This document shows positions 1 through 28,300 of a stretch of 32,758 nucleotides of DNA, in pieces; position 1 is the first letter of the stretch; the number at the start of each line of letters is the position of its first letter. Origin of the DNA: Chromatiales bacterium (GTDB lineage: Bacteria > Pseudomonadota > Gammaproteobacteria > Steroidobacterales > Woeseiaceae); NCBI GenBank assembly GCA_004282875.1, contig SHLT01000023.1, forward strand, positions 1-32,758. Direction: 5' to 3'. A program made the position numbers and the translations under genes. The notes beneath the pieces are model-generated. The model was given only the letters and a program-made list of their open reading frames with translations, ran no database searches and was not told the DNA's origin.

Positions 1-947
1 ACAACCTGCGTTTCTGGCTGAACAAGGGGGTCGACGGTTTTCGGTTCGATGCGGTGGGCGTCCTGTTCGAGAACGGGTCGTCGGCCTGGAACAACCAGCC
101 CGAGAACCACGTATTGCTGAAAGAAGTGCAGGACCTGGTCGATTTCTACGGCAAGCGCTTCATGATCTGCGAGGCGCCCGACGATCCGCCGGCCTTTGCC
201 GCGGCGACCTCTTGCGGACGCGCGTTCGCATTCGGCACGCAGGGCGCGATTCTCGACTCGGCACGGAACTTCGCGACCGACGGCAGTGTCACGAACCGGC
301 TCGCCGCCGCTGACGTCGATCGCCTGCCGCTGTTCCTTTCGAACCACGACAGCTTCGCCGGCGACCGCGTGTGGAACCAGTTGAACGGCGACACCGAGCA
401 ATACAAGTTGGCTGCGGCCACCTACTTGCTGGCCTCCCGCAATCCATTTACGTATTACGGCGAAGAAGTCGGCATGGCAAATGCCTCGGTGTATACGGAC
501 GACCGTACATTGCGCACACCGATGAGCTGGACATCCAATACCGTCACAGCGGGCTTTACGACCGGCACGCCATTCAGGAACTTGTCGGACAACGTCGCGA
601 CCCAAAACGTCGCGGACGAGGAGGGTGACAGCGATTCTCTACTCGAAAATTACCGGTCTCTTTACCAACTGCGGGCAACCTACCCGCTGATCGCCAGTGG
701 CGCGATGACGCTCCAGTCCGGCTCCGGCGATCCCGTCCTGTTGTGGACGAGATCTGACGGCGGCATCGTCGCGATCATTGCGATCAATTTTGCTGCGACG
801 GGGCAACAGGTAACGGCCGACACCGGCCTGGTTAATACGACGTTCGATGCGGTCCTGGGCGCCACGGGCCAGTTGGGGTCCGACGCAAGCGGAATGCTTA
901 CCATCGCCGTGCCGGGCCGCACGGCAGTCGTTTTCGTCAATCCCTGA
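1..947 (+). CDS. GH13 alpha-amylase family glycosidase, C-terminal part (5' end outside window)
   Basis: The reading frame is open from base 3 to the TGA at 945-947, so the gene begins upstream of the window; about 314 residues remain. Conserved GH13 regions II-IV are all readable: GVDGFRFD, whose last Asp (codon 48-50) is the nucleophile; MICEAP, whose Glu (codon 171-173) is the acid/base; and FLSNHD, whose Asp (codon 348-350) stabilises the transition state. After the end of the barrel (YYGEEVGM) comes a small beta-sandwich of the kind that closes GH13 enzymes. The expected role is hydrolysis of alpha-1,4-glucosidic bonds in starch or maltodextrin. Subfamily, signal peptide and region I cannot be judged because they are off the edge. 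The gene converges with the fusion gene on the other strand, and their last 11 bp overlap. Family assignment is secure; substrate is inferred from family and neighbours. Confidence 0.93.
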   Translation, partial: NLRFWLNKGVDGFRFDAVGVLFENGSSAWNNQPENHVLLKEVQDLVDFYGKRFMICEAPDDPPAFAAATSCGRAFAFGTQGAILDSARNFATDGSVTNRLAAADVDRLPLFLSNHDSFAGDRVWNQLNGDTEQYKLAAATYLLASRNPFTYYGEEVGMANASVYTDDRTLRTPMSWTSNTVTAGFTTGTPFRNLSDNVATQNVADEEGDSDSLLENYRSLYQLRATYPLIASGAMTLQSGSGDPVLLWTRSDGGIVAIIAINFAATGQQVTADTGLVNTTFDAVLGATGQLGSDASGMLTIAVPGRTAVVFVNP

Positions 948-3900
948 GGAGCCATTCGAGCTGCTCAAGTACCCTTGCGCGCCAGGCGCGCTCGCTATGG
1001 TCGGCGCCTTCATACTTGACGAACCGGTAGTCGCGGTTTTTCTTCAGTCCCTGCCTGCGGAACCAGCGCTCGACCGGTTTGTGGTCCGCTTCGTAGGTCG
1101 AATCCAGGGTCTCGGTTCCGTAGTCGAAGTAGAAGCGTCCGCCGGAAAGCGAATCGCCAGCCGCAATATCGAGCACGACGTAGGGCGTAGGGTCTGCGTT
1201 TTGCCTGTCTTTATTATAGTAGCCGGCAAACATTTGCTCGGATAAGGCGAAGTGGCTCGAGACACAACCGCAGGCGCCAATGACGTCGCTGTGATTCTTG
1301 ACCAGGTAATAGGACAAGAGGCCGCCCATGGACGATCCCATGGCGAAGGTATTCTCAGGGCCCGTCTTCGTGCGGAACGCGGCGTTGACGCGCGGCATCA
1401 GCTCCTCGATCAGGAAGCGCGCATACTGTGGTGCATCGTGCCACGGCGAGTACTCGAGTCCGCGTTTCGCGGTACTCCAGGTGCCGACGACAATAGCGGG
1501 CTCAAATGAACCTTCTTCGACGCCGCGCATCATGGCTTCGTCAATACCCCAGTCGACACCCCAGCTCGCGATACGCGGGTCGAACAGGTTTTCGCCGTCT
1601 GACATGTAAAGGACCTTGTAACGTGTGCCCGGATTTTCTTCGTACTCGGGCGGCAGCCAGATCACGACATTTCTATCTTCCTCGAGGAATGCAGAGCCTG
1701 TGTCATACCAGTAGTGCAGGGAACCGTGTGCTCCGGCACCGGACAGATTGGCCATGAACGGCGCATCGTCGGGCGCTTTGAACAGGCCGCCACCGATGCG
1801 GTAGACGGCGGATTCGGATGGTGCGAGACGGATATGAATCTTACCGGCGCCATGGTCCACAACGATGGCGTTTTGCGTTTCGCCGTAGAGTCGCTCGTCG
1901 AGCGTCCATCGCCCTGCCTTGAGGCCCAGTTCTTCGACCAGGCTTTCCGGCACCTCGATGACGAGTTCCTGTTCGCTCTCCGCGTCGAAATTGGCGACGA
2001 CGATGAGTCGCTCATCGTCGTCCCAGCGAGCGAATGCAAATACCCGGTCGTTGTTCGTCGGGATCGGCGCGTAGGCGCCTTGCAGAGCGCTATTCCTGGC
2101 GCTGAAGCTCATGAGCCTGACGTAGAAATCACGCAGCGACTTCTCGTCGTCGCTGAGTGCTCCACCGTCGAACATGCCACCATTCATCCAGCGCTGGTGC
2201 GCAGGCACGCCCCAGTAGTCGTATTGTGTCGTCCGGAGCTTCGGCGGCTGGTTGAAGTTGGCGTCGTTGAGGTCGCCTGCCTCGCCGACATCCTGTCCAA
2301 AGTAGAGCATGGTGGGTGACCGGCTGATTAGCGTAGACACGACCATGCCCGGTTTGCCGGCATGCCCGTTGCCGACGAAGTTAGCGCTTGCGATGCGCTC
2401 CTCGTCATGGTTCTCGAGAAAGTGCAGCATGTGCTCTTCGATATCGAGCACTTCGGCATGCACTGGTGCCAGCGTGCCGGACGAAGCCTCGCCCTGCATC
2501 ACAGGCTTCAATGCATCGTAGAGACCGACCTTGTCGTAGAGATAGCCCATGCGGCCGAGCTGCAGGTAGTCGCGGTAAAGATCCGGGTTATAGACCTCGG
2601 CCAGCAGGAAGGCCTCGGGGTTGATGCGCCGGATATTCGTATTGAGGTAACTCCAGAATTCGACCGGCACCATTTCGGCCATGTCGTAGCGAAAGCCGTC
2701 GACGCCGCGCGCGAGCCAGTACTCGGTGATCTGGCGGTACTTAGTCCAGCTGTCAGGTACGTCCTTATCCGCCCAAAACGCGACGTGCTCGGCATTACTC
2801 CAGCTGCGCGCATCGTCGGGCAAGCGATCGAAGGCATAGCTGCCGTCCGGGCGTACGCCGTGATTGACCTTGACGGTTTCGAACCAGTCCATGAACTCAG
2901 GCTTGGCGACGCGTGCGCCATTGCCGGTCCACTTCGCCGGCGATTCGTCAAAATGCCCGTCGTTCAGCGGATGTTCCTCACCGCCGAGCGGCTGGTAGTG
3001 GTCGGGAAAGTCGGGTAGTTCGAAGTCCTCACCGACGACATAGTAGAAGTTGTTGTCGCGCGCCCATTCGACCGACGTGTCGTCGTTGGCGCCGAAGTCC
3101 TCGACGCCCTCGGGTCGGCTGATCGACTCGTAGCGACGCGCTACGTGGTTCGGCACGACGTCGATAATTACTTTCATGCCGTTGCGATGGGTCCGCTCGA
3201 TCAGTGCGTCGAATTCCTCGAGACGCCTGGCGGGGTCAATCGCGAGATCCGGGTTGACGTTGTAGTAGTCCTTAACGGCGTAGGGCGAACCGGCACGGCC
3301 CTTGACCACGTCGGGATCGTCGTTGCTGATGCCATAGGCCGTGTAGTCTCGCACGATCGCGTGATGCGGCACCCCCGTGAACCAGATGTGCGACACGCCA
3401 AGCTCGCGAATGCCCCGCAGCGCTTCGTCGGTGAAGTCGGCGAACTTGCCAACGCCGTTTTCCTCGATCGTGCCCCAGGGCTTGTTGGTTGTTTTCTTGT
3501 TGCCGAACAGGCGGGTCCAGACCTGGTAGACGACGGGCTTGCCTTCGGGCTCGCTCACCTCGAGTCGCGCGGGAGCATGGTCCCAGGTCACATCGACGCT
3601 GAGTGTGCCGCCTTTTACGAAGTGGCCCTCTACTGCCTGGCCATTGAAGGTGATCTTATCGCCCGGCCCGCTCCAGTTGTGGATGACGAGTGTGACATCG
3701 CGCTCTTCCGGCATGCCCTGGTACTCGCCGCCGGTACGCGACAGGTCGATAGTCAGATAATGACCGTTCTGATTGGCTACGAAATTCAGCAGCTCGAATG
3801 CACCGTCCTCGAGACTCGTGCGGCTCGTGCCATCGTCTTCGTACATCTGTCCTGACGACTGCGACACCGAGGCGTCGGCGTAGTAATGCAGCGTCAGCTT

Positions 3901-5931
3901 CTTACTCGAGTAATCCCGCGTCGTCTGGATTTCGTCCGTCATCGGGATGAACGAGCCGCCGCGGACAAACACAGGAAGAGTCTCGAGGCTCAGTGGAACC
4001 TCGATCGGCCCGCCGCCCTCATAACGTTTGCCGCTAAGGAAGTCGAACCAGACGCCGGGCGGCAGCATCGACGAAATCGATTCCATATCCGGATCTGTGA
4101 CCGGGATAACGAAAAACGCATCGCCCCATAAGTAGGCGTCCTTGACGTCGATCAGCCAGGGAATGGACTCGTCTTCGAAAAACACGGGCCGCATCAGCGG
4201 CATGCCGGTCGTGCTGTTCTCGTACGCCAGCGTGTAGTTGTAGGGCAGCAGGCGATAGCGCAGGTTGACGAAGTCGCGCACGATGTCGCGCGTCTCCTCG
4301 TCATGAAAGACGGGCTCTGCCGGGATGTGTTCCTGAGCATGCGGGCGATACACAGGCTGGAAGACGCCGTACTGCAGCCAGCGAATGTACAGCTCCTTGT
4401 CGAATTCCTCGCCGCCGGCAAATCCGCCCAGGTCGGAGTGAGTATAGGCAAGGCCGAAGAGCCCGCCCTGCAGCGCGAGCTCGACCTGCGGCTTGAGACC
4501 GCCCCATTCGCGGCTGACGTCGCCAGTCCACGGGATGAAGCCGTAACGCTGTGACCCGGCGAACCCCGAACGCATCATGATCATCGAACGCATGTCCGGG
4601 TATTTCTCTACCTGGCGCTCGTACACCATGCGGGCCCACTCGTGGCCGTAGGCGTTATGCACCTCGTCGCCGGTCGCCTCGATGCCGGCCTCAGACAGCC
4701 GGTGGAGGGCATCGCCGGGATGCACCTCGGGCTCGCCGAGGTCCCCCCACGTGGCCGCCATGCCCTGCTCGAACAGCATCTCATAGGACTGCCAGAACCA
4801 GTCGGCGGCATCGTCATCGAATACGTCGATGAGCCCCGTGTTGCCGAAATAGAAGTCGAAGCGCCGCGGTTCACCCGTCACCGTGCGGGCAAGCGCATTG
4901 TTATCGACGGCCTCCTGCCAGCGCTTCGAGGTGCTCAGGATGAACGGCTCGGTGATCGCGATGGTCTTTACGCCCTCGGCGGCGAAGTCGGCCACCATGT
5001 CTTCGGGGGTTGGCCAGGCGTCGCGGTCCCAGTCGAGATTGCCCATGTGCCCCTTGATATCGGGGCCAAACCAGTAGATGTCGAGGATGATCGCGTCAAG
5101 CGGAATTCGTTCGTCGCGAAAGCGGCGCACGACGTCACGCGTTTCCGCTTCCGTGTGATAGCCGAAGCGCGACGCGTAGTTGCCGAAGGCCCAGCGCGGC
5201 GGCAGCGGTTGTTTGCCGGTCGCATCCGTGTAATTTCCGATGAGCTCGGGGTAGGTCGTGCCCGCGACTACGATGTACGAGGTACGCCCTGCGACGGCCT
5301 CGAATTGCAGGACGTCAGGCTCGGCATGGCCGATGTCGAGCCAGCCGCTCGCCGAGTTGTCGAACACGATCATGTACTTGTCGGACGACATGACGGCCGG
5401 CAGGCCGTAATACATCTGCTCGGACTCGGTGGTGTAACCGTAGTGAGCCTTGTTGTACAACGGCATGCGATTGCCGCGGCGGTCCATGCCGAGGACGCGC
5501 TGGCCGCCACCGAGGATCTTCTCGTCGTCATCGAGTGCGAAGCGGAAGCCGCGCAGCGTCTCGAGGGTGAAGTAGCCGTGTTCTTCTTCGACGAGCGGTT
5601 CGCCGTTGCGGAAATAGGAGACGCGTACGGGCGATTTGTCGACGACTGCGGTGATGCCGTCTATCGCGAAGGCAATCGTGTCATCCGTCTCGGTTATTGC
5701 ACCCGCGAAATCCCGATCCTGTGGCGCCAGCGCGAAGGAGGGCAGCTGCTTGACTCCGTCCTCGATGTAGTGGACTTCGAGCGCCGCATCATCGACAGCG
5801 GTGATGCGCAGATCGCCCGCTGAACTCGAGATCGCAAGCGTATTGCCGTCACGAGAATGGCTCTCGTATTCGCCGAAGTCTGCCCAGGTCGCGCTCGCCG
5901 CGAAAGCGAGCAACAGGATCAGTCGTTTCAA
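937..5931 (-). CDS. Exported GH31 alpha-glucosidase / GH13 alpha-amylase / esterase fusion protein (1664 aa)
   Basis: One uninterrupted frame encodes three enzymes. Residues 1-17 are a signal peptide (LKRLILLLAFAASATWA). Residues about 20-790 are GH31: mutarotase-like N-domain, barrel with nucleophile Asp397 in WGDLGE and acid/base Asp471 in WTGD, then beta-sandwich domains. Residues about 797-1380 are a complete GH13: DVVPNH (924-929), GVDGFRYD with Asp1083, AEVYNP with Glu1112, FLENHD with Asp1176, and a C-terminal sandwich. Residues about 1390-1664 are an alpha/beta-hydrolase of the Esterase D/CE1 type, with nucleophile Ser1534 in GSSMG and probable His1645 in GADHS. Each is normally a separate protein. 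The start is TTG: it gives the signal peptide and has AAGGAG 6 nt upstream, whereas the next in-frame Met is residue 149. It follows the cyclomaltodextrinase by 13 bp, so the two are probably one operon. The enzymes should act together on alpha-glucans in the periplasm or outside; the esterase substrate is unknown. Confidence 0.93.
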   Translation of the reverse strand: MKRLILLLAFAASATWADFGEYESHSRDGNTLAISSSAGDLRITAVDDAALEVHYIEDGVKQLPSFALAPQDRDFAGAITETDDTIAFAIDGITAVVDKSPVRVSYFRNGEPLVEEEHGYFTLETLRGFRFALDDDEKILGGGQRVLGMDRRGNRMPLYNKAHYGYTTESEQMYYGLPAVMSSDKYMIVFDNSASGWLDIGHAEPDVLQFEAVAGRTSYIVVAGTTYPELIGNYTDATGKQPLPPRWAFGNYASRFGYHTEAETRDVVRRFRDERIPLDAIILDIYWFGPDIKGHMGNLDWDRDAWPTPEDMVADFAAEGVKTIAITEPFILSTSKRWQEAVDNNALARTVTGEPRRFDFYFGNTGLIDVFDDDAADWFWQSYEMLFEQGMAATWGDLGEPEVHPGDALHRLSEAGIEATGDEVHNAYGHEWARMVYERQVEKYPDMRSMIMMRSGFAGSQRYGFIPWTGDVSREWGGLKPQVELALQGGLFGLAYTHSDLGGFAGGEEFDKELYIRWLQYGVFQPVYRPHAQEHIPAEPVFHDEETRDIVRDFVNLRYRLLPYNYTLAYENSTTGMPLMRPVFFEDESIPWLIDVKDAYLWGDAFFVIPVTDPDMESISSMLPPGVWFDFLSGKRYEGGGPIEVPLSLETLPVFVRGGSFIPMTDEIQTTRDYSSKKLTLHYYADASVSQSSGQMYEDDGTSRTSLEDGAFELLNFVANQNGHYLTIDLSRTGGEYQGMPEERDVTLVIHNWSGPGDKITFNGQAVEGHFVKGGTLSVDVTWDHAPARLEVSEPEGKPVVYQVWTRLFGNKKTTNKPWGTIEENGVGKFADFTDEALRGIRELGVSHIWFTGVPHHAIVRDYTAYGISNDDPDVVKGRAGSPYAVKDYYNVNPDLAIDPARRLEEFDALIERTHRNGMKVIIDVVPNHVARRYESISRPEGVEDFGANDDTSVEWARDNNFYYVVGEDFELPDFPDHYQPLGGEEHPLNDGHFDESPAKWTGNGARVAKPEFMDWFETVKVNHGVRPDGSYAFDRLPDDARSWSNAEHVAFWADKDVPDSWTKYRQITEYWLARGVDGFRYDMAEMVPVEFWSYLNTNIRRINPEAFLLAEVYNPDLYRDYLQLGRMGYLYDKVGLYDALKPVMQGEASSGTLAPVHAEVLDIEEHMLHFLENHDEERIASANFVGNGHAGKPGMVVSTLISRSPTMLYFGQDVGEAGDLNDANFNQPPKLRTTQYDYWGVPAHQRWMNGGMFDGGALSDDEKSLRDFYVRLMSFSARNSALQGAYAPIPTNNDRVFAFARWDDDERLIVVANFDAESEQELVIEVPESLVEELGLKAGRWTLDERLYGETQNAIVVDHGAGKIHIRLAPSESAVYRIGGGLFKAPDDAPFMANLSGAGAHGSLHYWYDTGSAFLEEDRNVVIWLPPEYEENPGTRYKVLYMSDGENLFDPRIASWGVDWGIDEAMMRGVEEGSFEPAIVVGTWSTAKRGLEYSPWHDAPQYARFLIEELMPRVNAAFRTKTGPENTFAMGSSMGGLLSYYLVKNHSDVIGACGCVSSHFALSEQMFAGYYNKDRQNADPTPYVVLDIAAGDSLSGGRFYFDYGTETLDSTYEADHKPVERWFRRQGLKKNRDYRFVKYEGADHSERAWRARVLEQLEWLLRD

Positions 5932-5937
5932 GGGACG

Positions 5938-5943
5938 CTCCTT
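5938..5943 (-). promoter_or_regulatory. Shine-Dalgarno site that fixes the TTG start of the fusion gene
   Basis: On the minus strand AAGGAG lies 6 nt before TTG (5931-5929), and the codons after that TTG encode a good signal peptide. The frame is also open upstream to 6135, but that stretch lies inside the cyclomaltodextrinase gene, lacks a ribosome site and reads as low-complexity Trp/Ser/Thr-rich protein. The TTG is therefore the preferred start. Confidence 0.8.
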
Positions 5944-5944
5944 A

Positions 5945-7804
5945 TCAATGCCTAATTTCGAGCAACAGCGCCGAGCGGGGTGCCAGCTCGAGCTCGTCAT
6001 CCAGCTCCACCATGGTATCGGCAAGTACATCGCGGGCGCGCGTCGCGCCGCGCAGGCGTTCGGCAAAGCGCGCGAGTTCGAGATCGATCTCGTCGTCGTC
6101 GAGATTGAACACCACCATGACGGTCTCGTCGTCATCGTAGCGGAAGAAGCTGTAGACGTTGCCGATCGGCGCGAACTGCATGAGCCTGCCGTTGTGAACC
6201 ACGTGCGTCTGTTTGCGCCAGTTCAGCAGCCTGCGCGTGAAGTCCTGCGCCCCGGCTTCACGGTCGGACAGGCCATCCCCGGTAAACGCATTGCTGTCGT
6301 GATCGTCCCAGCCACCCGGGAACTCTGCGCGGATCGCGCCATGGCTGTCGGTGCCGGGATGCGACATCTGGATCTCGGTTCCGTAGTAGATCTGCGGGAT
6401 GCCGCGCATCGTCGCGTAGAACACCATGGCGATCCGCCACAGATCCTCGTCTTCATCGAGCTGCGTGTAGATTCGGCTCATGTCGTGATTGTCCGGCATG
6501 ATCACGAGGTTCTCAGGCTCCGGGTACACGTAGTCGTGGCCGAGCAATTCGTAGACCGGTGTCCAGATGCTGCCCCAGGAGGGTTCGTCGCTGGTCAGGA
6601 CTTTCTGCAGCTTGATCTGCAGCGGGAAGTCGAACATGCCGGGCATATGGGAGACGTAGCCGTCCGGATTCTGCTTCCCGCGCTGCCAGTAGGCCGTGAC
6701 ATTCGGGCTCTCACTCCATTCCTCGCCAACCATGTTGAAATCAGGGTACTCCTGCATGATGCGCCGCGACCATTCGGCCATGAAGTGCTTGTCGGGGTAG
6801 GGGTGGGTGTCGTGCCGAATGCCCGACAGCCCCAGGTACTCGACCCACCAGATCGAATTCTGGATGATGTAATCGGCGAGCAGCGGGTCGCGCTGATTGA
6901 GGTCCGGCATTGTGGGTACAAACCAGCCGTCCGCATGGCGAGCCTTGTCGTACTCGGACGCATAGGGATCCTGGTTCGTCGTTCGCGCATGGATCGTCAC
7001 CTCGCGTGTCTCGGGGTTGTTCAGCCAGGTTTCTGTTGGCAGATCATCCATCCACCAGTGACCGCTGCCCGCATGATTCGCGATCATGTCCATGATGATG
7101 CCGATGCCCTTGTCGCGGGCTTCGTCGACGAATGCACGATAACTCTCATTGCTGCCGAAGCGCGGGTCGACCTTGTAGTAGTCGGTGATGGCATAGCCGT
7201 GGTACGACCATTGTTCCATCGCGTTCTCGAGCACCGGGTTGAGCCAGATCTGTGTGAAGCCCATGTCCGCGATGTAATCAAGGTGCAGGCGTACGCCCTC
7301 GATATCGCCACCGTGCCGGCCATAGTCGTCATTACGATTCTGCTCGTCGTCGTAGCCCCCGACGGAGTCATTCGTAGAGTCGCCGTTGGCGAAGCGATCG
7401 GGAGTGATCAGGTACATGACGTCACTACTGTCGTAGCTACCAACGCGGCCGGGTTCCCGTGAGCGCAGCTCGTAGGTCGTCGCAATGCGTTCGTCATCGT
7501 TTGTGAAGACGATGTCGAAGGAGCCGGCACTGGTGGCACTGATGTCGAGGTAGACGAACACGTAATTCGGGCTGTCGCCGGGCTCCACGCGCGCGATCGA
7601 AATCCCGTTCGCCGCGACGCTCGGCTCGAAGCGTGCGATGTCCGCCCCGTTGACGAGCAACTGCAGTTCGGTGTGCTCGAAGCCGGTCCACCAAAATGGC
7701 GGCTCGATGCGTTCGATCCGGTCGCCGGCCGCAGCGCCGGGTTCGTCCGAGGAACAGGCCGCGAGCAGCAGGAGCCCGATGGCCACTACGAGGTTTCGTT
7801 TCAT
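5945..7804 (-). CDS. Cyclomaltodextrinase/neopullulanase (SusA-like GH13) lipoprotein
   Basis: The protein has 619 residues. The start ATG at 7804 begins MKRNLVVAIGLLLLAAC, a lipoprotein signal with lipobox LAAC (Cys17), preceded by AAAGGGGG. Residues about 28-115 (with IEPPFWWTGF) are the N-terminal beta-sandwich typical of cyclomaltodextrinases. The barrel carries DMIANH (239-244), GIRHDTHPYPD with nucleophile Asp332, MVGEEW with Glu361, and MPDNHD with Asp441. The HDTHPYPD form of region II is characteristic of the SusA/neopullulanase branch. It should open cyclodextrins and cut pullulan or maltodextrins while anchored to a membrane. It is the first gene of a minus-strand pair with the GH31-GH13-esterase fusion and is transcribed divergently from the GH97 operon. 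An in-frame start 15 codons earlier (7849) is less likely because it would extend ahead of the signal peptide. Confidence 0.93.
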   Translation of the reverse strand: MKRNLVVAIGLLLLAACSSDEPGAAAGDRIERIEPPFWWTGFEHTELQLLVNGADIARFEPSVAANGISIARVEPGDSPNYVFVYLDISATSAGSFDIVFTNDDERIATTYELRSREPGRVGSYDSSDVMYLITPDRFANGDSTNDSVGGYDDEQNRNDDYGRHGGDIEGVRLHLDYIADMGFTQIWLNPVLENAMEQWSYHGYAITDYYKVDPRFGSNESYRAFVDEARDKGIGIIMDMIANHAGSGHWWMDDLPTETWLNNPETREVTIHARTTNQDPYASEYDKARHADGWFVPTMPDLNQRDPLLADYIIQNSIWWVEYLGLSGIRHDTHPYPDKHFMAEWSRRIMQEYPDFNMVGEEWSESPNVTAYWQRGKQNPDGYVSHMPGMFDFPLQIKLQKVLTSDEPSWGSIWTPVYELLGHDYVYPEPENLVIMPDNHDMSRIYTQLDEDEDLWRIAMVFYATMRGIPQIYYGTEIQMSHPGTDSHGAIRAEFPGGWDDHDSNAFTGDGLSDREAGAQDFTRRLLNWRKQTHVVHNGRLMQFAPIGNVYSFFRYDDDETVMVVFNLDDDEIDLELARFAERLRGATRARDVLADTMVELDDELELAPRSALLLEIRH

Positions 7805-7858: not shown

Positions 7859-7872
7859 TGAATACGTTTGCA
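7859..7872. promoter_or_regulatory. Candidate LacI-family operator in the divergent cyclomaltodextrinase/GH97 region
   Basis: TGAATACGTTTGCA matches its own reverse complement at 10 of 14 positions and has a central ACGT, the usual shape of a LacI-family operator. It lies between the two divergent glycan operons, 54 bp from the minus-strand start codon and 41 bp from the plus-strand one, where one bound repressor could control both. A LacI-family regulator is encoded about 5 kb away. Assignment to that regulator is inference. Confidence 0.45.
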
Positions 7873-7913: not shown

Positions 7914-9944
7914 ATGTCCAGAAGCCTTTCGCCAATCAGCGCCGCCGCCGTTTTCTTGCTTGCTATCGTGGCAGCGCTTGCCGGTTGCCTGCCTGCTGCC
8001 GGTGTATTTTCGCCAGATGGCGAGATTGAATTCAGGGTCAATATTGACACCAAGGGTCAGCCCGGCTACGAGGTTCGCCACGAGGGCGTCAGCGTGGTCG
8101 GCTGGTCGCGCCTCGGCATCGAATTCACCGACGGTGCATCCGCAGTCGGACGTTACCGCCTCGCCGATATCGAGCGCAACCAGCGCGACGCAACCTGGGA
8201 GCAGCCATGGGGCGAGCGTCGCGTCGTGCGCGACCGACATAACGAAATGGTCGTTACGCTCGCCAGCAAGGAGGGCGTCGATTTTCGTGTGCGGGTTCGC
8301 GTGTTCGACGACGGTGTTGGCTTTCGCTACGAGTTTGACGGCGACAGCCAGGTTGCAATCAAGCGTGAGTGGACCCAGATAAACCTCGCGGGCCCGGCCA
8401 CCGCCTGGTGGCAGCCGGCGAACGGCAAGGTTCGCTATGAGCACCTGTATGAAGCCACGCCACTTGCCGAAATGGAGGCTGCGCACACACCCGTTACACT
8501 TGTACGGGACGATGGCTTGCACGTCGCCGTGCATGAGGCTGCCCTGGTCGACTACGCGGCCTACACATTGGCTCCGACAGACGGTGGCGGGTTCCATACG
8601 GAACTGCGCCCGTGGTCGGATGGAATCGCGGTGCGGACTGCACGACCGTTCACGACGCCCTGGCGGACACTGCAGATTGCCGAAGATGCCAGTGGGCTCA
8701 TCAACTCAGACCTGATCCTGAATCTCAATGAGGCCAACGTGCTGGGTGACGTGTCCTGGGTCGAGCCCGGTAAATACGTCGGCATCTGGTGGGAAATGCA
8801 CCTGGGTCTGAAGACCTGGGAAGAAGGGCCGCGACATGGGGCGACAACAGCCAATGCCAGGCGCTACATCGATTTTGCGGCGGACCATGGTTTCGATGGT
8901 GTGCTCGTGGAAGGCTGGAACAAGGGTTGGCACGGACCGTTCAATTACACTGAAGCCTACGATGACTTCGACCTCGACGGCGTGGTCGACTACGCCCGGG
9001 ATCGCGACGTTTACCTGATCGCTCATCATGAGACCTACGGCGATGTGCCCTCATACGAGACGCAGATGGAAGCCGCGATGGATGTTCTGGCTGACGCGGG
9101 TATCCCGCAGGTCAAGACCGGCTACGTTGCAGATGCCGGTGCCTTGCGTGGGGTTGACGCGAATGGCGAGGAGGCGCAGGTCTGGCACGACAGCCAGTTC
9201 CACGTCCAGCACTTGCTGCGGAACGTGCGTGCGGCAGCGCAGCGTCGTGTGGCCGTGAACACGCACGAGCCGGTCAAGGACACGGGTCTGCGTCGGACCT
9301 ACCCCAACTGGCTGACGCGCGAAGGTTCGCGCGGGCAGGAATTTGCGATCTGGGGTGAGATTCCCAATCCGCCCGAACACACGGTCGTCCTGGTGCATAC
9401 GCGCATGCTAGGCGGCCCTATGGACTTCACGCCGGGCATGTTCGATCTGTACCCGGTACGCGATGGCGAGCAGAAACGGATTCAGACGACGTTAGCGAAG
9501 CAACTTGCGCTGTACGTCGTGCTGTACAGTCCGATGCAGATGGTCCCGGACTTGCCTGAGAACTACGCAACGCACCCGACCGCATTTCAGTTTGTTGTCG
9601 ACGTGCCGACCGATTGGGAAGAGAGTATCGCGCTGGATGGTGCCGTTGGTGACTTCGTGGTGATGGCAAGACGCGAACGTGGCGGCGATGACTGGTATCT
9701 CGGGGCCATAACTGACGAGGAGGCGCGCCATGTGTCCGTGCCGCTGCACATGCTGGATGCGGGCGTAGACTACGTCGCGGAGATCTATCGCGATGGCGAC
9801 GACGGCCACTGGAATGACAATCCTTACGCGCTGACAATTGAGCGCCGGGATATTTCCAGCGACACGACACTTGAATTATGGTTGGCTGCGGGGGGTGGCA
9901 CAGCCGTGCGCTTCAGGCCACAAGAGGGGGCATTAGAAGAATGA
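7914..9944 (+). CDS. GH97 alpha-glucosidase (SusB-like) lipoprotein
   Basis: The 676-residue protein starts with a lipoprotein signal ending in LAGC (Cys25). Residues about 32-275 form the N-terminal beta-super-sandwich of GH97, about 280-560 the barrel, and the rest the C-terminal beta domain. Family hallmarks are IWWEMHLG, VEGWNKGW, HHETYGD, NTHEPVKDTG, LTREGSRGQE and GGPMDFTPGMF. Glu452, Glu470 and Glu476 have the same 18- and 6-residue spacing as Glu508/526/532 of Bacteroides SusB, which points to the inverting, calcium-dependent alpha-glucosidase type rather than the retaining alpha-galactosidase type. It would release glucose from maltodextrin ends in the periplasm or at a membrane. No clear Shine-Dalgarno sequence precedes the ATG. 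It is the first gene of an operon, and its TGA overlaps the ATG of the transporter (ATGA). Confidence 0.93.
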   Translation: MSRSLSPISAAAVFLLAIVAALAGCLPAAGVFSPDGEIEFRVNIDTKGQPGYEVRHEGVSVVGWSRLGIEFTDGASAVGRYRLADIERNQRDATWEQPWGERRVVRDRHNEMVVTLASKEGVDFRVRVRVFDDGVGFRYEFDGDSQVAIKREWTQINLAGPATAWWQPANGKVRYEHLYEATPLAEMEAAHTPVTLVRDDGLHVAVHEAALVDYAAYTLAPTDGGGFHTELRPWSDGIAVRTARPFTTPWRTLQIAEDASGLINSDLILNLNEANVLGDVSWVEPGKYVGIWWEMHLGLKTWEEGPRHGATTANARRYIDFAADHGFDGVLVEGWNKGWHGPFNYTEAYDDFDLDGVVDYARDRDVYLIAHHETYGDVPSYETQMEAAMDVLADAGIPQVKTGYVADAGALRGVDANGEEAQVWHDSQFHVQHLLRNVRAAAQRRVAVNTHEPVKDTGLRRTYPNWLTREGSRGQEFAIWGEIPNPPEHTVVLVHTRMLGGPMDFTPGMFDLYPVRDGEQKRIQTTLAKQLALYVVLYSPMQMVPDLPENYATHPTAFQFVVDVPTDWEESIALDGAVGDFVVMARRERGGDDWYLGAITDEEARHVSVPLHMLDAGVDYVAEIYRDGDDGHWNDNPYALTIERRDISSDTTLELWLAAGGGTAVRFRPQEGALEE

Positions 9945-11446
9945 AACAGAAGCCTGTACTAAGTTTTTGGCAAATCTGGAATATGTGTTTCGGATTCCTT
10001 GGAATCCAGATGGGCTTCGCGCTGCAAAACGCGAACGTCAGCCGCATCTTCCAGACGCTCGGCGCAGCCGTCGACGAGATACCCATCCTGTGGGTCGCGG
10101 CGCCGCTGACGGGACTCATCGTGCAGCCGATCATCGGCTACATGTCCGATCGCACCTGGAATCGACTTGGCCGCCGCCGTCCTTACTTCCTTGTAGGCGC
10201 AATTCTTGCGTCGCTGGCACTGTTTGTCATGCCTAATTCGCCGTACCTGTGGTTTGCGGCCGGCATGCTTTGGATCATGGATGCGAGCATCAATGTCTCG
10301 ATGGAACCGTTTCGTGCTTTTGTGGGCGACATGCTGCCGGAAAAGCAGCGCACGTCCGGGTTCGCGATGCAGACGTTCTTCATCGGCGTCGGCGCGGTCA
10401 TCGCATCGGCATTGCCGTGGGTCATGACCAACTGGTTCGAGGTCAGCAATACAGCGCCTGCCGGCGAAATTCCTGAGTCTGTCAAGATCGCATTCTACGT
10501 GGGCGGTGCGGCGTTTCTGCTGGCCGTGTCGTGGACGGTTTTCCGTTCCCGCGAGTACTCGCCCGAACAGCTTGCCGAGTTCGAGGCGATGCGCGACAAG
10601 ACCGGCGAAGACGCGGTGCCGACGTTGCGCGCCGCTGTGAAATACAGGAACGGCGGGCTTCTCTGGCTCGTCGTAGGGGCGGCGCTCCTGTTCTGGATTG
10701 TGAAGGCCGAACTCGACAAGGAACTCTACATTCTCGGCGGCGGCATCGCGGCCTTCGGCCTCTTCCAGTTACTTGCCTCGTTGCTGCAGGGCAAGGGCGC
10801 AACCGAGAACGGCTTTTATGAAATCATGCACGATCTGTTTCATATGCCACGGGCTATGCGGCAACTCGCTATCGTGCAGTTCTTCTCCTGGTTTGCGTTG
10901 TTCGCGATGTGGATTTACGGGACCTCGGCGGTGACGAGCTATCACTTTGGCGCCACGGATGTCACGTCGGCAGCATTCAATGATGGCGCGGACTGGAATG
11001 GCATATTGTTCGCGTCGTACAACCTGTTTGCGGCGCTGGCTGCGATCGCGATTCCGTTCGTTGCCAATCGCCTTGGGTGCCGCGTCAGTCACATGATTAA
11101 TCTGAGTCTTGGCGGCATCGGACTCATCAGCTTTTACTTCATCGGAAACCCGAAGCTGCTGCTCATCTCGATGGTCGGCGTCGGATTCGCGTGGGCCTCG
11201 ATCCTCTCGCTGCCTTATGCGTTGCTGTCGAATAACCTGCCGGCGCAAAAGATGGGCGTGTATATGGGGATCTTTAATTTCTTCATTGTTATCCCGCAGT
11301 TGGTCGCGGCGAGCATCCTGGGTCTGTTGCTGCGCGAGTTCTTCGACCTGCAGCCGATCTTTGGCCTGGTCATCGGCGGTGTTTCGCTACTGATCGCCGG
11401 CGCGGTGACCTTGCTCGTCGACAAGTCGGCAGAGCCCACAGCATGA
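9941..11446 (+). CDS. MFS sugar transporter, SLC45/maltose-sucrose type
   Basis: The 501-residue inner-membrane protein begins at the ATG that overlaps the GH97 stop codon; a purine-rich AAGAGGGGG lies upstream. About twelve hydrophobic segments are present. The loop between helices 2 and 3 holds the MFS motif GYMSDRTWNRLGRRRPYF (66-83), and the N-terminus (FWQIWNMCFGFLGIQMGFAL) is typical of the glycoside-pentoside-hexuronide/SLC45-like carriers found in maltose and sucrose loci. A longer start at 9878 exists but would lie entirely within the GH97 coding end. Its position between two exported alpha-glucan hydrolases suggests proton-coupled import of maltose or glucose released by them. The exact sugar is inferred from context. 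The stop codon overlaps the next ATG (ATGA), so the three genes are probably translated in a coupled way. Confidence 0.9.
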   Translation: MKQKPVLSFWQIWNMCFGFLGIQMGFALQNANVSRIFQTLGAAVDEIPILWVAAPLTGLIVQPIIGYMSDRTWNRLGRRRPYFLVGAILASLALFVMPNSPYLWFAAGMLWIMDASINVSMEPFRAFVGDMLPEKQRTSGFAMQTFFIGVGAVIASALPWVMTNWFEVSNTAPAGEIPESVKIAFYVGGAAFLLAVSWTVFRSREYSPEQLAEFEAMRDKTGEDAVPTLRAAVKYRNGGLLWLVVGAALLFWIVKAELDKELYILGGGIAAFGLFQLLASLLQGKGATENGFYEIMHDLFHMPRAMRQLAIVQFFSWFALFAMWIYGTSAVTSYHFGATDVTSAAFNDGADWNGILFASYNLFAALAAIAIPFVANRLGCRVSHMINLSLGGIGLISFYFIGNPKLLLISMVGVGFAWASILSLPYALLSNNLPAQKMGVYMGIFNFFIVIPQLVAASILGLLLREFFDLQPIFGLVIGGVSLLIAGAVTLLVDKSAEPTA

Positions 11447-13128
11447 GAATCATCGTTGCGGGAATCGCCGTTTTACTGGCGTCGTGCGCGTCGCAAAACG
11501 ATGCAGTTCGTGAAAGCCGTGATTACTACGGGACGCTGGAGCCGTTCGCGGCCGAGGCCGTGTATTTCCTGTTGACCGACCGCTTCGTCGACGGTGATCC
11601 GTCCAACAATTTTCCTGAGCAGGGCGGTGGGCCGGATACGCGCACGTTCAACAGGCCGATTCACGTGCCCGGTTACGAGCCCGCGAACATGGGCTACCTC
11701 GGCGGTGACTTCAAAGGAGTACTCGACAACGCAGCTTATATAGCGGACATGGGTTTCACGGCTATCTGGACAACACCCATCGTCGATAACCCGGATGAGG
11801 CCTTTACCGGCAGCAGGGTCCCTGGCAGGGGGCCGGGCGGCGACAAAGGTAAGTCCGGGTTCCACGGCTACTGGGGCGTGAACTTCTTCGTCGTCGACGA
11901 GCACCTGGAGTCTGACGGTCTGACGTTTGCGGACTTCACCGGCCAACTGCAACGCGCGCACGATCTCAAGTATGTTCTCGACGTGGTGTGCAACCATGGG
12001 TCACCGGCTTACACGATGCCGGCAGACCAGCCCGATTTCGGCGAATTGTATGACGCTGCGGGCGAGTTGGTTGCGGACCACCAGAATCTCCATCCGTCCG
12101 AGCTTGATGCAAATAATCCGCTACATGCCTTTTACAATCGCGAACCCGGTTTGGGTGAATTGTCCGACCTGAACGAAACCAATCCCGAGGTTCTCGATTA
12201 TTTCGTGGCTGCCTATGCGCAATGGCTCGACCAGGGTGTCGATGCTTTCCGGATCGATACGATCGCGCACATGCCGCACGCATACTGGAAGGCGTTCAGC
12301 GACAGGATTCGGGAGAAGCGCCCGGGATTGTTCATGTTCTCGGAGAACTTCGCCTACGATGCGACCGCTATTGCCCCGAATACCTGGCCGGAAAACGGAA
12401 AGATCAGCGTCCTCGATTTCCCGGGCAAGCAGGCGATGAATCGGGTATTCGCGGATGGTGAAAACTACAGTGAACTGGCCGACTACCTGCATCTGGAGTC
12501 CGGTCTCTACGACAATCCCTACGACCTGATGACCTTCTACGACAATCACGACATGGACCGGATGAACGCCGCGACACACGGCTTCATCGACGCCAACAAC
12601 TGGCTGTTCACGAGTCGTGGCATACCCGTCGTCTATTACGGTTCGGAGATCGGCTTCGAGGCGGGTACAAACGAGCACACGGGTAACCGCAATTACTTCG
12701 GGCAGGACAATATTGATGGTGCCGCGTCGCACCCGATTCACGCGGCGCTCACGCGGATCGCCAACATCCGTAAGAATTCAGTCGCACTGCAGCGGGGCCT
12801 GCAGGTGTATACGGGCTTCGGCGCCCGCTCGGCGAGCTTTTTTCGCGTGTATCAAAAAGACGGCGTGCGCCAGACCGCACTCGTGCTGCTCAATGGTGGC
12901 GACGAAGCCGTCACGATGGAGTTTGGTCAGCTACCGGCAAGCGGTGCCTGGAAGGATGCGGTGACAGGACATATCGTCCAGGTCGACGACGACTTTACGG
13001 GCCTGGTACAAGAGATCGCACCCCACGGCGTACGCGTCTACCTCAACGACGCACCGCTCACGCACCCGGAGTTTGTCAAGCTACTGGATGAGGCGCAGGC
13101 AGCTAAAGTGCGCCGCAAGACGCCCTGA
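11443..13128 (+). CDS. GH13 alpha-amylase family lipoprotein
   Basis: The 561-residue protein opens with a short lipoprotein signal, MRIIVAGIAVLLASC (Cys15). GH13 regions are complete: region I DVVCNH (180-185), region II GVDAFRID with nucleophile Asp272, region III FMFSENF with acid/base Glu301, and region IV FYDNHD with Asp370. AVYFLLTDRFVDGDPSNNF near the N-terminus is the usual first strand of secreted amylases and CGTase-like enzymes, and the long loop around residues 55-80 and 120-140 also resembles that group. There is no starch-binding domain; a short C-terminal sandwich ends the protein. It is the last gene of the GH97-transporter-amylase operon. Its 3' end overlaps the convergent LacI-family gene by 26 bp. 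Hydrolysis or transglycosylation of maltodextrin is expected; the product pattern cannot be read from sequence. Confidence 0.92.
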   Translation: MRIIVAGIAVLLASCASQNDAVRESRDYYGTLEPFAAEAVYFLLTDRFVDGDPSNNFPEQGGGPDTRTFNRPIHVPGYEPANMGYLGGDFKGVLDNAAYIADMGFTAIWTTPIVDNPDEAFTGSRVPGRGPGGDKGKSGFHGYWGVNFFVVDEHLESDGLTFADFTGQLQRAHDLKYVLDVVCNHGSPAYTMPADQPDFGELYDAAGELVADHQNLHPSELDANNPLHAFYNREPGLGELSDLNETNPEVLDYFVAAYAQWLDQGVDAFRIDTIAHMPHAYWKAFSDRIREKRPGLFMFSENFAYDATAIAPNTWPENGKISVLDFPGKQAMNRVFADGENYSELADYLHLESGLYDNPYDLMTFYDNHDMDRMNAATHGFIDANNWLFTSRGIPVVYYGSEIGFEAGTNEHTGNRNYFGQDNIDGAASHPIHAALTRIANIRKNSVALQRGLQVYTGFGARSASFFRVYQKDGVRQTALVLLNGGDEAVTMEFGQLPASGAWKDAVTGHIVQVDDDFTGLVQEIAPHGVRVYLNDAPLTHPEFVKLLDEAQAAKVRRKTP

Positions 13129-14131
13129 CGATAAGGCGCGGTGCCATTTGCGTGGATTCAACGGGCTCGCCTTCGATCAGGCCGACGATGCCGTGCACCA
13201 GGCCATCGGCGGCCTGCCTGATGTCCTGCCGAACGGTGGTGAGTGCGGGGGTAACGTGGCCGGCCAGCGAAATGTCATCGAAGCCCACCACAGCAATATC
13301 GTCGGGAATGGTGTAGCCGTTATCTTCGAGCGCCCGCATGGCATCGATAGCGATGACGTCAGTAACCGCGAAGATGGCGTCGAATTCGACGTCCCGCGAC
13401 AGCAAATCGAGAGCGGCCCGATAGCCTTCTCCCTCGGAACTCATGGCATCGACTTTTAGCCTGTCGTCGGGCTCGAGGCCGGCGTCGAGCAGCGCCTTGC
13501 GGTAGCCGTCATAACGGGCGGCCAGTTCCGGCGATCGCTGGGATGTGCTGCCCAGGAAAGCGATGCGTTGGCGACCGAGGCCGAGCAGGTGCCGAGTTGC
13601 CTGGTCGCCGCCATCGACGTTGTCGCAGCTGATGGAATGCCCGGGCTGATTGTCGATTATCGGTCCCCAGATCATGAAGCGCGTGTTGGCCCGCGCCAGC
13701 GCCTCGATCTTCTCGTGATAGGTGAGGTAGTCGCCATAACCGAGAAGGATCAGGCCGTCGGCCCGATTGCTGGCCTGGTACTCAATATGCCAGTCGTCAG
13801 TCAGTTGCTGCATGGAGATCAGCACATCGTAGCCCAACCCTGACGCAGCGCGGGTGATGTAACCCAGCATCGATAGGAAGAACGGATTGATCTGTGCGTC
13901 TTCGCCCTCGGTTTCGTCAAACAGGAGCAGCGCAATCGTGTTGCTTTGCTGGGTCCGCAGACCGGCTGCATTGCGGTTTACGAAGTAGTTCAATTCGCGT
14001 GCGATTTGCTGCACACGTTCGCGCGTTTCCTTGCGCACGAGGGGACTGTTGCGCAGCGCACGCGAGACGGTTGCCTGCGACACGCCGGCGATCTCGGCAA
14101 TATCCCGCGATGTCGGGTTGTCTACCTTCAT
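13103..14131 (-). CDS. LacI-family transcriptional regulator
   Basis: The 342-residue protein has an N-terminal LacI helix-turn-helix (residues 7-27, SRDIAEIAGVSQATVSRAL), hinge helix around LNYFVNRNAAGLR, and a periplasmic-binding-protein-like sugar domain (about 60-342) with FDAIFAVTDVIAIDAMRAL and DDIAVVGFDDI, both standard in the family. It is therefore a DNA-binding repressor or activator released or recruited by a sugar. The adjacent convergent alpha-glucan operon makes it the best candidate regulator of that locus. It is not transcribed alone: its ATG overlaps the stop of the DUF2189 gene (ATGA, 14131-14128), placing it at the end of the methyltransferase-GT4-DUF2189 operon. The 3' end overlaps the amylase gene by 26 bp. 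The family call is certain; the maltodextrin role is inferred. Confidence 0.92.
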   Translation of the reverse strand: MKVDNPTSRDIAEIAGVSQATVSRALRNSPLVRKETRERVQQIARELNYFVNRNAAGLRTQQSNTIALLLFDETEGEDAQINPFFLSMLGYITRAASGLGYDVLISMQQLTDDWHIEYQASNRADGLILLGYGDYLTYHEKIEALARANTRFMIWGPIIDNQPGHSISCDNVDGGDQATRHLLGLGRQRIAFLGSTSQRSPELAARYDGYRKALLDAGLEPDDRLKVDAMSSEGEGYRAALDLLSRDVEFDAIFAVTDVIAIDAMRALEDNGYTIPDDIAVVGFDDISLAGHVTPALTTVRQDIRQAADGLVHGIVGLIEGEPVESTQMAPRLIVRASCGAL

Positions 14132-25380: not shown

Positions 25381-28300
25381 TCAACCCGTTGCGCGCATCT
25401 CCTCGACCGCCTGTTCCTTGACGGGGCCATAGCCGCGAATATCGAGGTAGGCCTGAACAGATTCCAAGAGCCGCTGGTGGTTGTCGGTCGATAGTGTCGG
25501 CAGGGATTCGTCGAGCAGCGCCTCAAAGTCGACGATGAGCTGGCGTTCCATGCGGCGTTCGCCCGTATAGCCGAAGATGTCGAAGGCGGTGCCACGAAGG
25601 CCGCGCAAGCGCGCAAGCAGCCCGAAGACGGGAAGGATCCAGGGACCGAACTCACGCTTCAGAGGCCGTCCGCGAGCGTCCTTTTTGCCGCCGAGAAACG
25701 GGGGCGCGAGGTGAAACCGGAGCTTTGCATCGCTACCAAAATCACGTCGGACTGAGTCGAGGAATTCCGGCCTGGAGTGCAGACGGGCGACTTCGTATTC
25801 GTCTTTGTAGCTGAGGAGGCGGAACCAGGCCTGTGCGACGGCGCGGGCAAGCTGTTCACTCTCGGTGATGGCGCGCTCCGCCTCGTGCACCCGCGTGACG
25901 AGTGCAGTGAATCGCTCGGCCAGTGCATCATCCTGGTAAGCCGTAAGAAACGTGCGCCGCGCTGCCACCATCTCGTCGAGCGTGTCTTCCTTGCTGCGCA
26001 CTTCGCCATCAAGCAATGCGGCAATGGCGGCGGAATTGTGTGCCGCGATGCGGCCCCAGGTGAATGCCTGCTTGTTGGCGTCGACCTTGACGCCATTGAG
26101 CTCGATGGCGCGCAGCAGCGCAGCCAGTGAAACGGGTATCAGGCCCTGCTGCCAGGCGCAGCCGGTCATGATCACATTGGCATAGATCGTGTCGCCCATG
26201 AGCCTGCGCGCCAGCGTATTGGCATCAATGGTGCTTAGCATGCCGTCGCCCACCGCATTGCCGATCGCGGCGAGCCTCTCATCGACGCGTAGATTGGCAT
26301 CCCGGTGCTGGATGAAATCGCCGGTCAGCATCTCTGCCGTATTGACGAGGGCGCGAGTGTGGTCCTTCTGGTAGGTGACGGAGGCTTTCGGCGATGAACT
26401 GACGACGAGGTCGCAGCCGATCAGGGCGTCGGCGCGCGCAGGCTCGATGCGGACCTGGTTGATATCGGCCGGCTGTTCGCCAATGCGCAGGTAGCTCAGG
26501 ACCGGGCCGAATTTTTGTGCAAAGCCCATGAAATCGAGTTCGCTGGCCCCCTTGCCCTCGAGGTGTGCCGCCATCGTGATGAGCGCGCCGACGGTAATCA
26601 CGCCCGTGCCGCCGACACCGGTTACGAGCAGGTCATAGCATGAGTCGATTGCGGGAACGGCGGCGTCGGGCAGTTCGCGACCCAGCGCTTCCAGTTCGTT
26701 GCCGAAGGCCGCCGCCGCGCGCGGCCGCTCGATATTGCCTTCGACCGTCACGAAGCTCGGACAAAAGCCGTTGACGCAGGAGTAGTCCTTGTTGCAGCTG
26801 TCCTGGTCGATCTGGCGCTTGCGCCCGAACGGCGTCTCCTTCGGTATGACGGAAAGGCAATTGGACTCGACCGAACAATCGCCGCAGCCTTCGCAGACGA
26901 GTTCGTTGATGACGACGAACTTGTTAGGGTCTTCTAGCTTGCCGCGCTTGCGGCGGCGCCGCTTTTCGGTGGCACAGGTTTGCGCGTAAATGAGGACCGT
27001 CACACCGGGAATGTCCCGGAGCTCTCGCTGCACGCTATCGAGTTCGCTCCGGTGGCTGATTGAGGTGCGAGCCGGAAAGTCGGTGGAATCGAAAAGTTCG
27101 GGTTCATCCGAGACGAGCGCAATGCGCTCTACACCCTCGGCGCGGACGGCCTGGGCAATGCTTTGCACGGTCAGGGGGCCGTCCACGGGCTGGCCCCCGG
27201 TCATTGCGACCGCGTCGTTAAAAAGGATCTTGTAGGTGATGTTGGTCCCGGCCGCGATCGACTGCCGAATCGCCAGTGATCCGGAGTGGTAGAACGTGCC
27301 GTCGCCGAGGTTCTGGAACGCGTGCTCGCCGCCATTGAACCTGGAGCGCGTGATCCAGTTGACGCCTTCGCCGCCCATCTGGATCAGACCGTCGGTGTCG
27401 CGGTCCATCCAGCTCGCCATAAAATGGCAGCCGATGCCGGCGAGTGCCTTGGAACCCTCCGGAACCCTGGTGGACGTGTTGTGCGGGCAGCCCGAGCAAA
27501 AATACGGCATCCGCGTCGCGCCCTGGACTGCGATGCGAGAACCGCGTTGCCGCGCGAGAATCTCGGCCCGGTCGCCGAATCGGGTTCCGCCAAACTCCCT
27601 GTCGAGGCGCCGCGCGACGATCGGCGCGAGCTGTACGGGCGATAGTTCGCCAACCCAGGGCACCAGGCGATCGAAGTTCTCATCCCGCTTGCCGACCATG
27701 CGTTTCGGCTTCTTGCCCGGGTAGTCGTAAAAGTACTCCTTGAACTGGCTCTCGATGATGCCGCGTTTTTCCTCGACGACGAGCACTTCGTTCTTGCCCT
27801 GCACGAAGTCGAGAGCGCCCCTGGGCTCCAGCGGCCAGACCATGCCCACCTTGTAGACGTCGATGCCGATGCGGCGCGCCTCGTCGGCGTCGATGCCGAG
27901 CAGGCGCAGCGCTTCCATCAGGTCGAGATGCGCCTTGCCTGTTGTCACAATGCCGAAACGCGCCTTCGGCACGTCGAAAATCTTGCGGTCGATCGGGTTC
28001 GCGGCCGCGAACGCAAGCGTCGCGGCTTTCTTGGCTTCGAGGCGCTCCTCGATCTGCGGGCCCGGAAAGTCGGGCCAGCGATAGTGCAGCCCGGTCACGG
28101 GCGCCACAAAGTCGTCCGGAATGACGTACTGGGGGTAGGGCGGCAGTTCGAAGGACATGGCCGACTCGACCGTCTCGGTGACCGCCTTGAAACCCACCCA
28201 CATCCCCGAGAATCGCGACAGTGCGATGCCGTACAGGCCGTATTCGAGGTACTCGGCGATGTTGGCAGGATTCAGGTGCGGCATCATGAACGTCAGGAAA

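Follow-up and report, generated by a model that had tools for sequence, protein, structure and literature searches.

Alpha-glucan polysaccharide utilization loci (PULs) of marine Flavobacteriia and Woeseiaceae combine the glycoside hydrolase (GH) families GH13, GH31, and GH97 (and GH65 or GH77) with SusC-type receptors (PMC11093988; PMC10108472; PMC12175321). This locus type has already been predicted in Woeseiaceae (PMC12175321), and during a North Sea bloom alpha-glucans and laminarin were the most prominent dissolved polysaccharides consumed (PMC10108472). The available passages of these three papers contain no three-enzyme chain and no esterase in alpha-glucan breakdown; the word "esterase" is absent from the main text of PMC11093988, PMC10108472 uses it a single time and only in general terms, and PMC12175321 was not searched for it. 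Multicatalytic CE15-GH8 carbohydrate-active enzymes place an esterase and a glycoside hydrolase in one PUL-encoded chain, as here, with different families (PMC8417218, available passages), and a survey, as far as its accessible text goes, reports that carbohydrate esterase (CE) family CE1 is occasionally accompanied by the carbohydrate-binding module (CBM) CBM20 in myxobacteria (PMC12093494). A passage search of a paper on the R. bromii amylosome (PMC5814915) gave no esterase, and open-licence papers yielded no description of GH31-GH13-esterase chains or of CBM20 starch esterases. Here, we analyse such a chain, encoded in the window (the whole 32,758-nucleotide stretch under study, contig SHLT01000023.1 of a Chromatiales bacterium of the family Woeseiaceae, from the seafloor). 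Its locus likewise unites GH13, GH31, and GH97 enzymes; the chain is a multicatalytic alpha-glucan enzyme of a known locus type, and the esterase is what sets it apart. We propose, with a probability of roughly 0.53, that it is a periplasmic multicatalytic processor of O-acylated maltodextrins within a LacI/TonB regulon.

The three-part gene is a genuine single intact open reading frame: the interval from 5931 to 937, for which the original prediction stated no strand, is open only on the minus strand, with many stops on the plus strand. Translation from a TTG at 5931, 13 bases past the stop of the upstream gene, gives 1664 residues; a longer in-frame ATG lies at 6135, within that upstream gene, and the frame of a relative (L052) is likewise 1664 residues long with the same kind of TTG start. 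The gene and its parts are listed here, with the signal peptide cleavage site picked by eye.

937..5931, minus strand: three-part gene, 1664 residues, TTG start; signal peptide, GH31, GH13, and PF00756 esterase
5938..5943, minus strand: AAGGAG, likely ribosome-binding site just 5' of the TTG (from the sequence)
5881..5931, minus strand: Sec signal peptide, residues 1-17, ATWA/DF (from the sequence)
3622..5874, minus strand: GH31 module with DUF5110, Agd31B type, residues 20-770; D397, D471 (Pfam and sequence kinship to solved structures)
1798..3537, minus strand: GH13 module with Alpha-amylase_C, residues 799-1378; D1083, E1112, D1176 (Pfam and model)
943..1758, minus strand: esterase module (PF00756), residues 1392-1663; S1534, H1645, conserved D1603 and D1610 (Pfam and model)

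Pfam places a GH31 domain set at residues 41-752, Alpha-amylase from 828, Alpha-amylase_C at 1293-1378, and Esterase at 1413-1660. The original prediction had put three intact catalytic sites in one frame behind one signal peptide, and every residue that it named is present in the chain (D397, D471, D1083, E1112, D1176, S1534, and H1645), which presumably resides in the periplasm. These residues are strongly conserved in an alignment of 207 proteins (all those returned by the homologue searches, plus the query): the GH31 Asp/Asp pair is kept in all 84 three-part and all 45 two-part proteins, the GH13 Asp/Glu/Asp triad in 207 of 207, and the esterase Ser and His in 139 and 138 of 139 proteins, respectively, the single exception for His being a gap.

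With 210 contigs for 3.39 Mb, the draft genome is fragmented, and an assembly or frame artefact deserves consideration, as does the possibility, raised with the original prediction, that all close relatives carry separate genes. A homologue search of 5.8 billion proteins returned 310 relatives within the length limits, and among the best 120 of these many are full-length homologues of ~1640-1700 residues with all three Pfam parts, at 59-92% identity and most over 99-100% of the query. Some reside on contigs of 3,696,919, 3,487,514, and 2,555,343 bases. Because these homologues come from independent assemblies, several of them with megabase contigs, and because 16 of 30 genomes of the genus encode the three-part chain, the frame is no assembly join, and we consider an artefact to be vanishingly improbable. 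The search across genomes also establishes that the architecture recurs within the family and is not a rarity of one genome: named three-part records belong to Woeseiaceae or to unclassified Gammaproteobacteria/Proteobacteria. Source databases that name such proteins often do so by their first module only, as "oligosaccharide 4-alpha-D-glucosyltransferase".

At the genus level, 73 genomes were surveyed, and 31 have a match at E <= 1e-60, a threshold at which a distant separate esterase would be missed. Setting aside G362, which has a distant GH31 only, leaves the 30 genomes with an Agd31B-like GH31. By reading of the rows, the 16 with the three-part chain comprise 15 complete frames (that of the window's genome included) and one that ends inside the esterase (G338). 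Four others have a GH31-GH13 chain without an esterase in it (G002, G014, G034, and G354), with the esterase in the next frame in G002 and a GH13-CBM20-esterase frame ~11 kb away in G014. In the remaining ten, GH31 stands apart from GH13 or the contig edge is reached; a GH13-esterase occurs in four of these (G022, G027, G031, and G355), no esterase is found at the locus in another four (G005, G340, G351, and G359), and esterase status is not readable in G360 and G364. Altogether, an esterase is in the chain or nearby in 22 of 30 genomes. Agd31B-like GH31 (E <= 1e-150) appears in just three of 275 genomes, our own included, from an even draw of the class at completeness of 80 or more, so the type is uncommon outside the family; three genomes are too small a sample for an unbiased tally of esterase neighbours beyond the genus. 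Among the other arrangements observed, a Woeseiaceae locus encodes a four-enzyme chain, GH31-GH13-esterase-GH13, of 2289 residues (P0049; L026:9974-16852), and in the same genus a different fusion (L112:6023-8653, minus strand) links another type of GH13 to CBM20 and to an esterase of the same lineage, ~11 kb from a GH31-GH13 gene.

The association of the three modules extends beyond this family. Among 80 named loci, ranked by a query that included the esterase and therefore biased upward in esterase share, 12 are three-part, six are two-part, one is an esterase-GH31 fusion (L041), and 61 have separate genes or GH31 alone. The esterase is an adjacent gene in 13 of the 80, in other marine bacteria and in three orders: behind GH31 > GH13 or GH31-GH13 (L031, L040, L059, L075, L076, and L093), between the two as GH13 > esterase > GH31 (L062, L067, L077, L086, and L088), or in front as esterase > GH31 > GH13 (L042 and L043). 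In L060 and L064 it lies ~3 kb from the pair. The marine strains Simiduia aestuariiviva, Paraglaciecola arctica, and Microbulbifer sp. NKW57, which can be cultured, encode the modules as separate genes. The fusion in L041 (4310-7789, Flavobacteriaceae) is a separate one of reversed order, 1160 residues long and adjoining a GH13 gene.

The nearest solved relative of the GH31 part is Agd31B of Cellvibrio japonicus, an oligosaccharide 4-alpha-D-glucosyltransferase (4b9y and others; its reaction is stated in the available text of PMC9061262), at 958 bits over ~746 residues, compared with 314 bits for the next solved family. The two share the motifs WGDLGEPE and WTGDVSR, whereas the solved Agd31B chain (817 residues) contains neither GH13 nor esterase. 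Since the alignment covers nearly the whole module, GH31 is most likely a disproportionating 4-alpha-glucosyltransferase and not the plain exo-alpha-glucosidase first proposed. The GH13 part was expected to be an endo-amylase. Its family membership holds by triad and Pfam, while endo-amylase activity is unproven, as only distant solved relatives exist (best E 2.3e-14). The nearest folds belong to the cyclomaltodextrinase/neopullulanase group (TVAII 1g1y and others), which has the same fold and catalytic triad but shows 15-22% identity in the fold lists and includes no close solved member. A structure predicted for the GH13-esterase piece is of moderate quality (mean predicted local distance difference test, pLDDT, 76.6; predicted template modelling score, pTM, 0.67); in it D1083 and E1112 directly follow strands, and D1176 falls in a low-confidence stretch.

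The esterase part shows the alpha/beta-hydrolase fold of the PF00756/CE1-like family. The label "Esterase D" given to it initially does not fit: the nearest fold is that of the enterobactin esterase Fes, and the nearest solved sequences are feruloyl/acetylxylan-type esterases. Fes and the CBM48-bearing CE1 feruloyl/acetylxylan esterases have the fold, the Ser in a GSSMG elbow, and the His in common with our esterase, and they carry a beta-sandwich before the esterase, as do its stand-alone relatives; unlike theirs, the sandwich of these relatives matches CBM20 by sequence, and identity is low (13-25%). Two acid candidates for the triad are conserved, D1603 in 138 and D1610 in 137 of 139 proteins, and in the model the position after a strand favours D1610. 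Within the window's own genome PF00756 has 12 matches, of which two besides the chain's are strong (198 and 97 bits), so abundance does not explain why an esterase joined the GH31/GH13 pair.

The stand-alone relatives suggest where this esterase came from. In 91 of the 99 nearest, the N-terminal module matches Pfam CBM20 at E <= 0.01, and a profile of that module matches 48 solved sequences at E <= 0.05, every one a starch-active enzyme or the starch-binding domain of one. CBM48 was considered as the identity of the module and is not among the six families found at E <= 0.01; the fold list does not separate CBM48 from CBM20, and VIA-align itself says that the N-terminal module is barely tested. 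In a quick tree (midpoint root, with a long-branch warning) the chain's catalytic module is nested among the CBM20-esterases, and GH31-GH13-CBM20-esterase chains exist in which the module sits between GH13 and esterase (P0045 by Pfam and P0065 by our own profile). The esterase of the chain is thus likely, judging by these sequence relationships, to be of starch-binding descent. In another family of the order, a stand-alone CBM20-esterase (L110:8455-9714) has, by eye, a TonB receptor and a mandelate-racemase-like gene as neighbours and no starch locus around it.

More than one esterase lineage has met the same GH31/GH13 pair. The same quick tree (midpoint root, long-branch warning), built from 104 esterase modules, resolves three groups: lineage A, to which the window's esterase belongs, among the CBM20-esterases; lineage B, of other Woeseiaceae fusions, beside L042 and L043; and lineage C, which unites L041 with esterases encoded as neighbouring genes in Alteromonadaceae, Microbulbifer, and elsewhere. 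Members of one lineage share a median identity of 56-62%, members of different lineages one of 31-38%. On esterase and GH13 trees of one set of 148 rows, the A/B label changes once on the former and eight times on the latter, and a single B clade on the GH13 tree is rejected with all 136 database rows (approximately unbiased test, p-AU 0.013, eight changes), as it is in a 44-row set that includes nine rows hand-picked as mixed-looking (p-AU 0.0017). Because of the one versus eight changes and the rejection on the full row set, the two lineages were likely exchanged on the same GH13 backbone, an uncertain number of times. The 23 changes counted for the GH31 label are an upper guess, because the proteins in some of the rows that lack GH31 may be truncated. 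These results bear on the possibility that the chain acts on plain, unesterified alpha-glucan and that the esterase has a minor role on rare side products, such as acetyl-maltodextrins from other bacteria. A minority of the genus does without the esterase, and the other modules need no acyl group; yet near-complete retention of the esterase Ser and His, and its seemingly repeated acquisition or exchange, speak against a dispensable module, and we hold this explanation to be rather unlikely.

The surrounding genes place the chain in a predicted regulon:

5945..7804, minus strand: upstream GH13 resembling SusA/cyclomaltodextrinase, likely lipoprotein (name, start, and lipid site assigned by eye)
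7859..7872, no strand assigned: LacI-type operator TGAATACGTTTGCA in the divergent spacer
7914..9944, plus strand: GH97, in the divergent operon
9941..11446, plus strand: major facilitator superfamily sugar symporter; best NCBIfam match, a sucrose/proton symporter, below cut-off
11443..13128, plus strand: GH13, likely lipoprotein (by eye)
13103..14131, minus strand: LacI-family regulator, likely reader of the operator
3..947, plus strand: 3' part of a GH13 gene truncated at the contig end; 5' part probably at the end of contig C195 (L120)

The operator was first spotted by eye in the spacer and afterwards searched for in relatives and in the genome; a symmetric LacI site, TGNNANCGNTNNCA, had been the first guess, and none was found. 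The consensus TGAATACGTATTCA combines what we take to be the sites of maltose regulators with the observation in the spacer, and it is the fit in relatives, rather than the name, that we treat as evidence. Of 24 Woeseiaceae-type loci, 22 have a site with <=3 mismatches to it (all of a first 16, then six of eight), against an average of 0.45 in shuffled windows; L022 and L046 lack one at that threshold. By coordinates, the site in the first 16 loci is at the same spacer or gene start, and a pair of sites spaced by ~19 bases marks the start of each of the seven TonB receptors tested in relatives. Across the 3.39-Mb genome TGNATACGTWTNCA occurs at just three places, one in the window's spacer and a pair on C195, and a reversed control gave none. 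The pair on C195 lies between a TonB-receptor operon and genes for GH77 and GlgC-like and GlgA-like proteins. We infer from these shared sites that the chain gene, the GH97/symporter operon, and the C195 TonB-receptor operon would form one LacI-type regulon. Such a setting matters for the idea that the esterase rides along as a hydrolase of siderophores or small esters, fused for common expression and export only. The maltodextrin-type operator at the locus, the CBM20-bearing kin of the window's lineage, and the three esterase lineages found in or beside the same GH31/GH13 pair make this quite unlikely. The link between the esterase and starch is stronger than in the original prediction, owing to those same relatives, that repeated association, and the shared operator.

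A single gene in L052 matches, in two of its parts, the beginning of the GH13 on C195 and the GH13 remnant at window positions 3-947, so contig C195 probably adjoins the window on its left. The operon on C195 comprises the TonB receptor, two tryptophan-halogenase-like proteins, a GH43, a SASA-type carbohydrate esterase, and the start of the GH13. The halogenase-like proteins (L120:3723-6730) are directly behind the receptor, and their kin occur near receptors in many related loci. The GH43 and the SASA-type esterase (L120:1088-3888) include pentose enzymes that are odd in an alpha-glucan regulon: the nearest solved relative of the former is an arabinofuranosidase/beta-xylosidase, and that of the latter the acetylxylan-esterase-related 1zmb (E 1.7e-5). 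The presence of an additional esterase, unrelated in fold, behind this operator supports an esterified substrate, and the GH43 alongside it keeps a pentose-bearing substrate open. Such a substrate could be a plant or algal polysaccharide, acetylated and either mixed or decorated with xylose/arabinose; the chain's esterase would then strip acetyl or hydroxycinnamoyl substituents from its pentose portion, and the amylase modules would serve its glucan portion; the nearest solved sequences of that esterase, being feruloyl esterases, would suit this role. However, SASA is found at seven loci (L030, L035, L037, L047, L052, L112, and C195), with GH43 in five of them, and neither occurs in nine other Woeseiaceae-type loci (L025, L026, L032, L033, L034, L048, L113, L114, and L116), most of which have the esterase, within stretches that end at contig ends or flanks. 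Moreover, the Pfam matches of the stand-alone kin are to CBM20 and to no xylan-type module, and no xylanase is among the seven window genes searched. We regard such a mixed or decorated polysaccharide as unlikely.

We therefore return to O-acylated maltodextrins as the preferred substrate of the chain. A LacI-type regulator would control the chain gene together with the TonB receptor, GH97, other GH13 enzymes, and the sugar symporter. Imported alpha-glucan pieces would carry O-acyl esters, most simply acetyl, which the C-terminal esterase would remove; the middle GH13 would shorten the deacylated pieces; and the N-terminal GH31 would disproportionate small maltooligosaccharides by transferring individual glucosyl units onto the 4-OH group of other sugars. 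Products too short for GH13 would thereby become glucose and longer dextrins, which would re-enter the cycle. The exported single chain with an esterase, envisaged at the outset as an alpha-glucan degrader, is supported in this form, with activities assigned by kinship.

Several observations weigh against this proposal. No natural alpha-glucan of marine sediment is known to us to be acylated. The closest fold to the chain's esterase is a siderophore esterase, and Fes and CBM48 feruloyl esterases have N-terminal domains that, by fold, also align with the N-terminal module of the stand-alone relatives. At Pfam's precomputed cut-off, CBM20 appears in just 42 of the 120 stand-alone relatives listed, so the module is a diverged one; the window's chain has no CBM20, and two of 74 type-A three-part rows do. 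One stand-alone CBM20-esterase (L018) lies beside a TonB receptor and unrelated genes, by eye in no starch locus. Six of the 30 genus genomes have no esterase of such a kind at the locus, with two more indeterminate, and 52 of the 80 named loci, many of them truncated at contig ends or at the limit of the 10-kb flank, show no esterase match >150 bits near the pair, with a weak one in L073. Finally, two random 44-row sets do not reject a single B clade (p-AU 0.116 and 0.265, with four and three changes).

Elsewhere in the window we noted, by eye, a 1133-residue protein resembling an indolepyruvate ferredoxin oxidoreductase fusion (25381-28782, minus strand) and a repetitive 422-residue protein with FG-GAP-like repeats (30949-32217, plus strand).

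A broader and more tentative reading, to which we give somewhat less than even odds, is that an undescribed family of starch esterases, of CBM20 type with PF00756, has repeatedly been built into marine alpha-glucan chains, that a sizeable share of sediment alpha-glucan is O-acylated, and that deacylation, cleavage, and glucosyl transfer were fused to handle it. If the esterase does deacylate maltodextrins, natural alpha-glucans would carry a modification that harsh (e.g., alkaline) extraction would destroy, and CBM20-type esterases would offer a handle for finding acylated alpha-glucan. One genus holds three-part, two-part, split, and four-enzyme forms, and thus displays fusion, splitting, and apparent module exchange around a single pathway.

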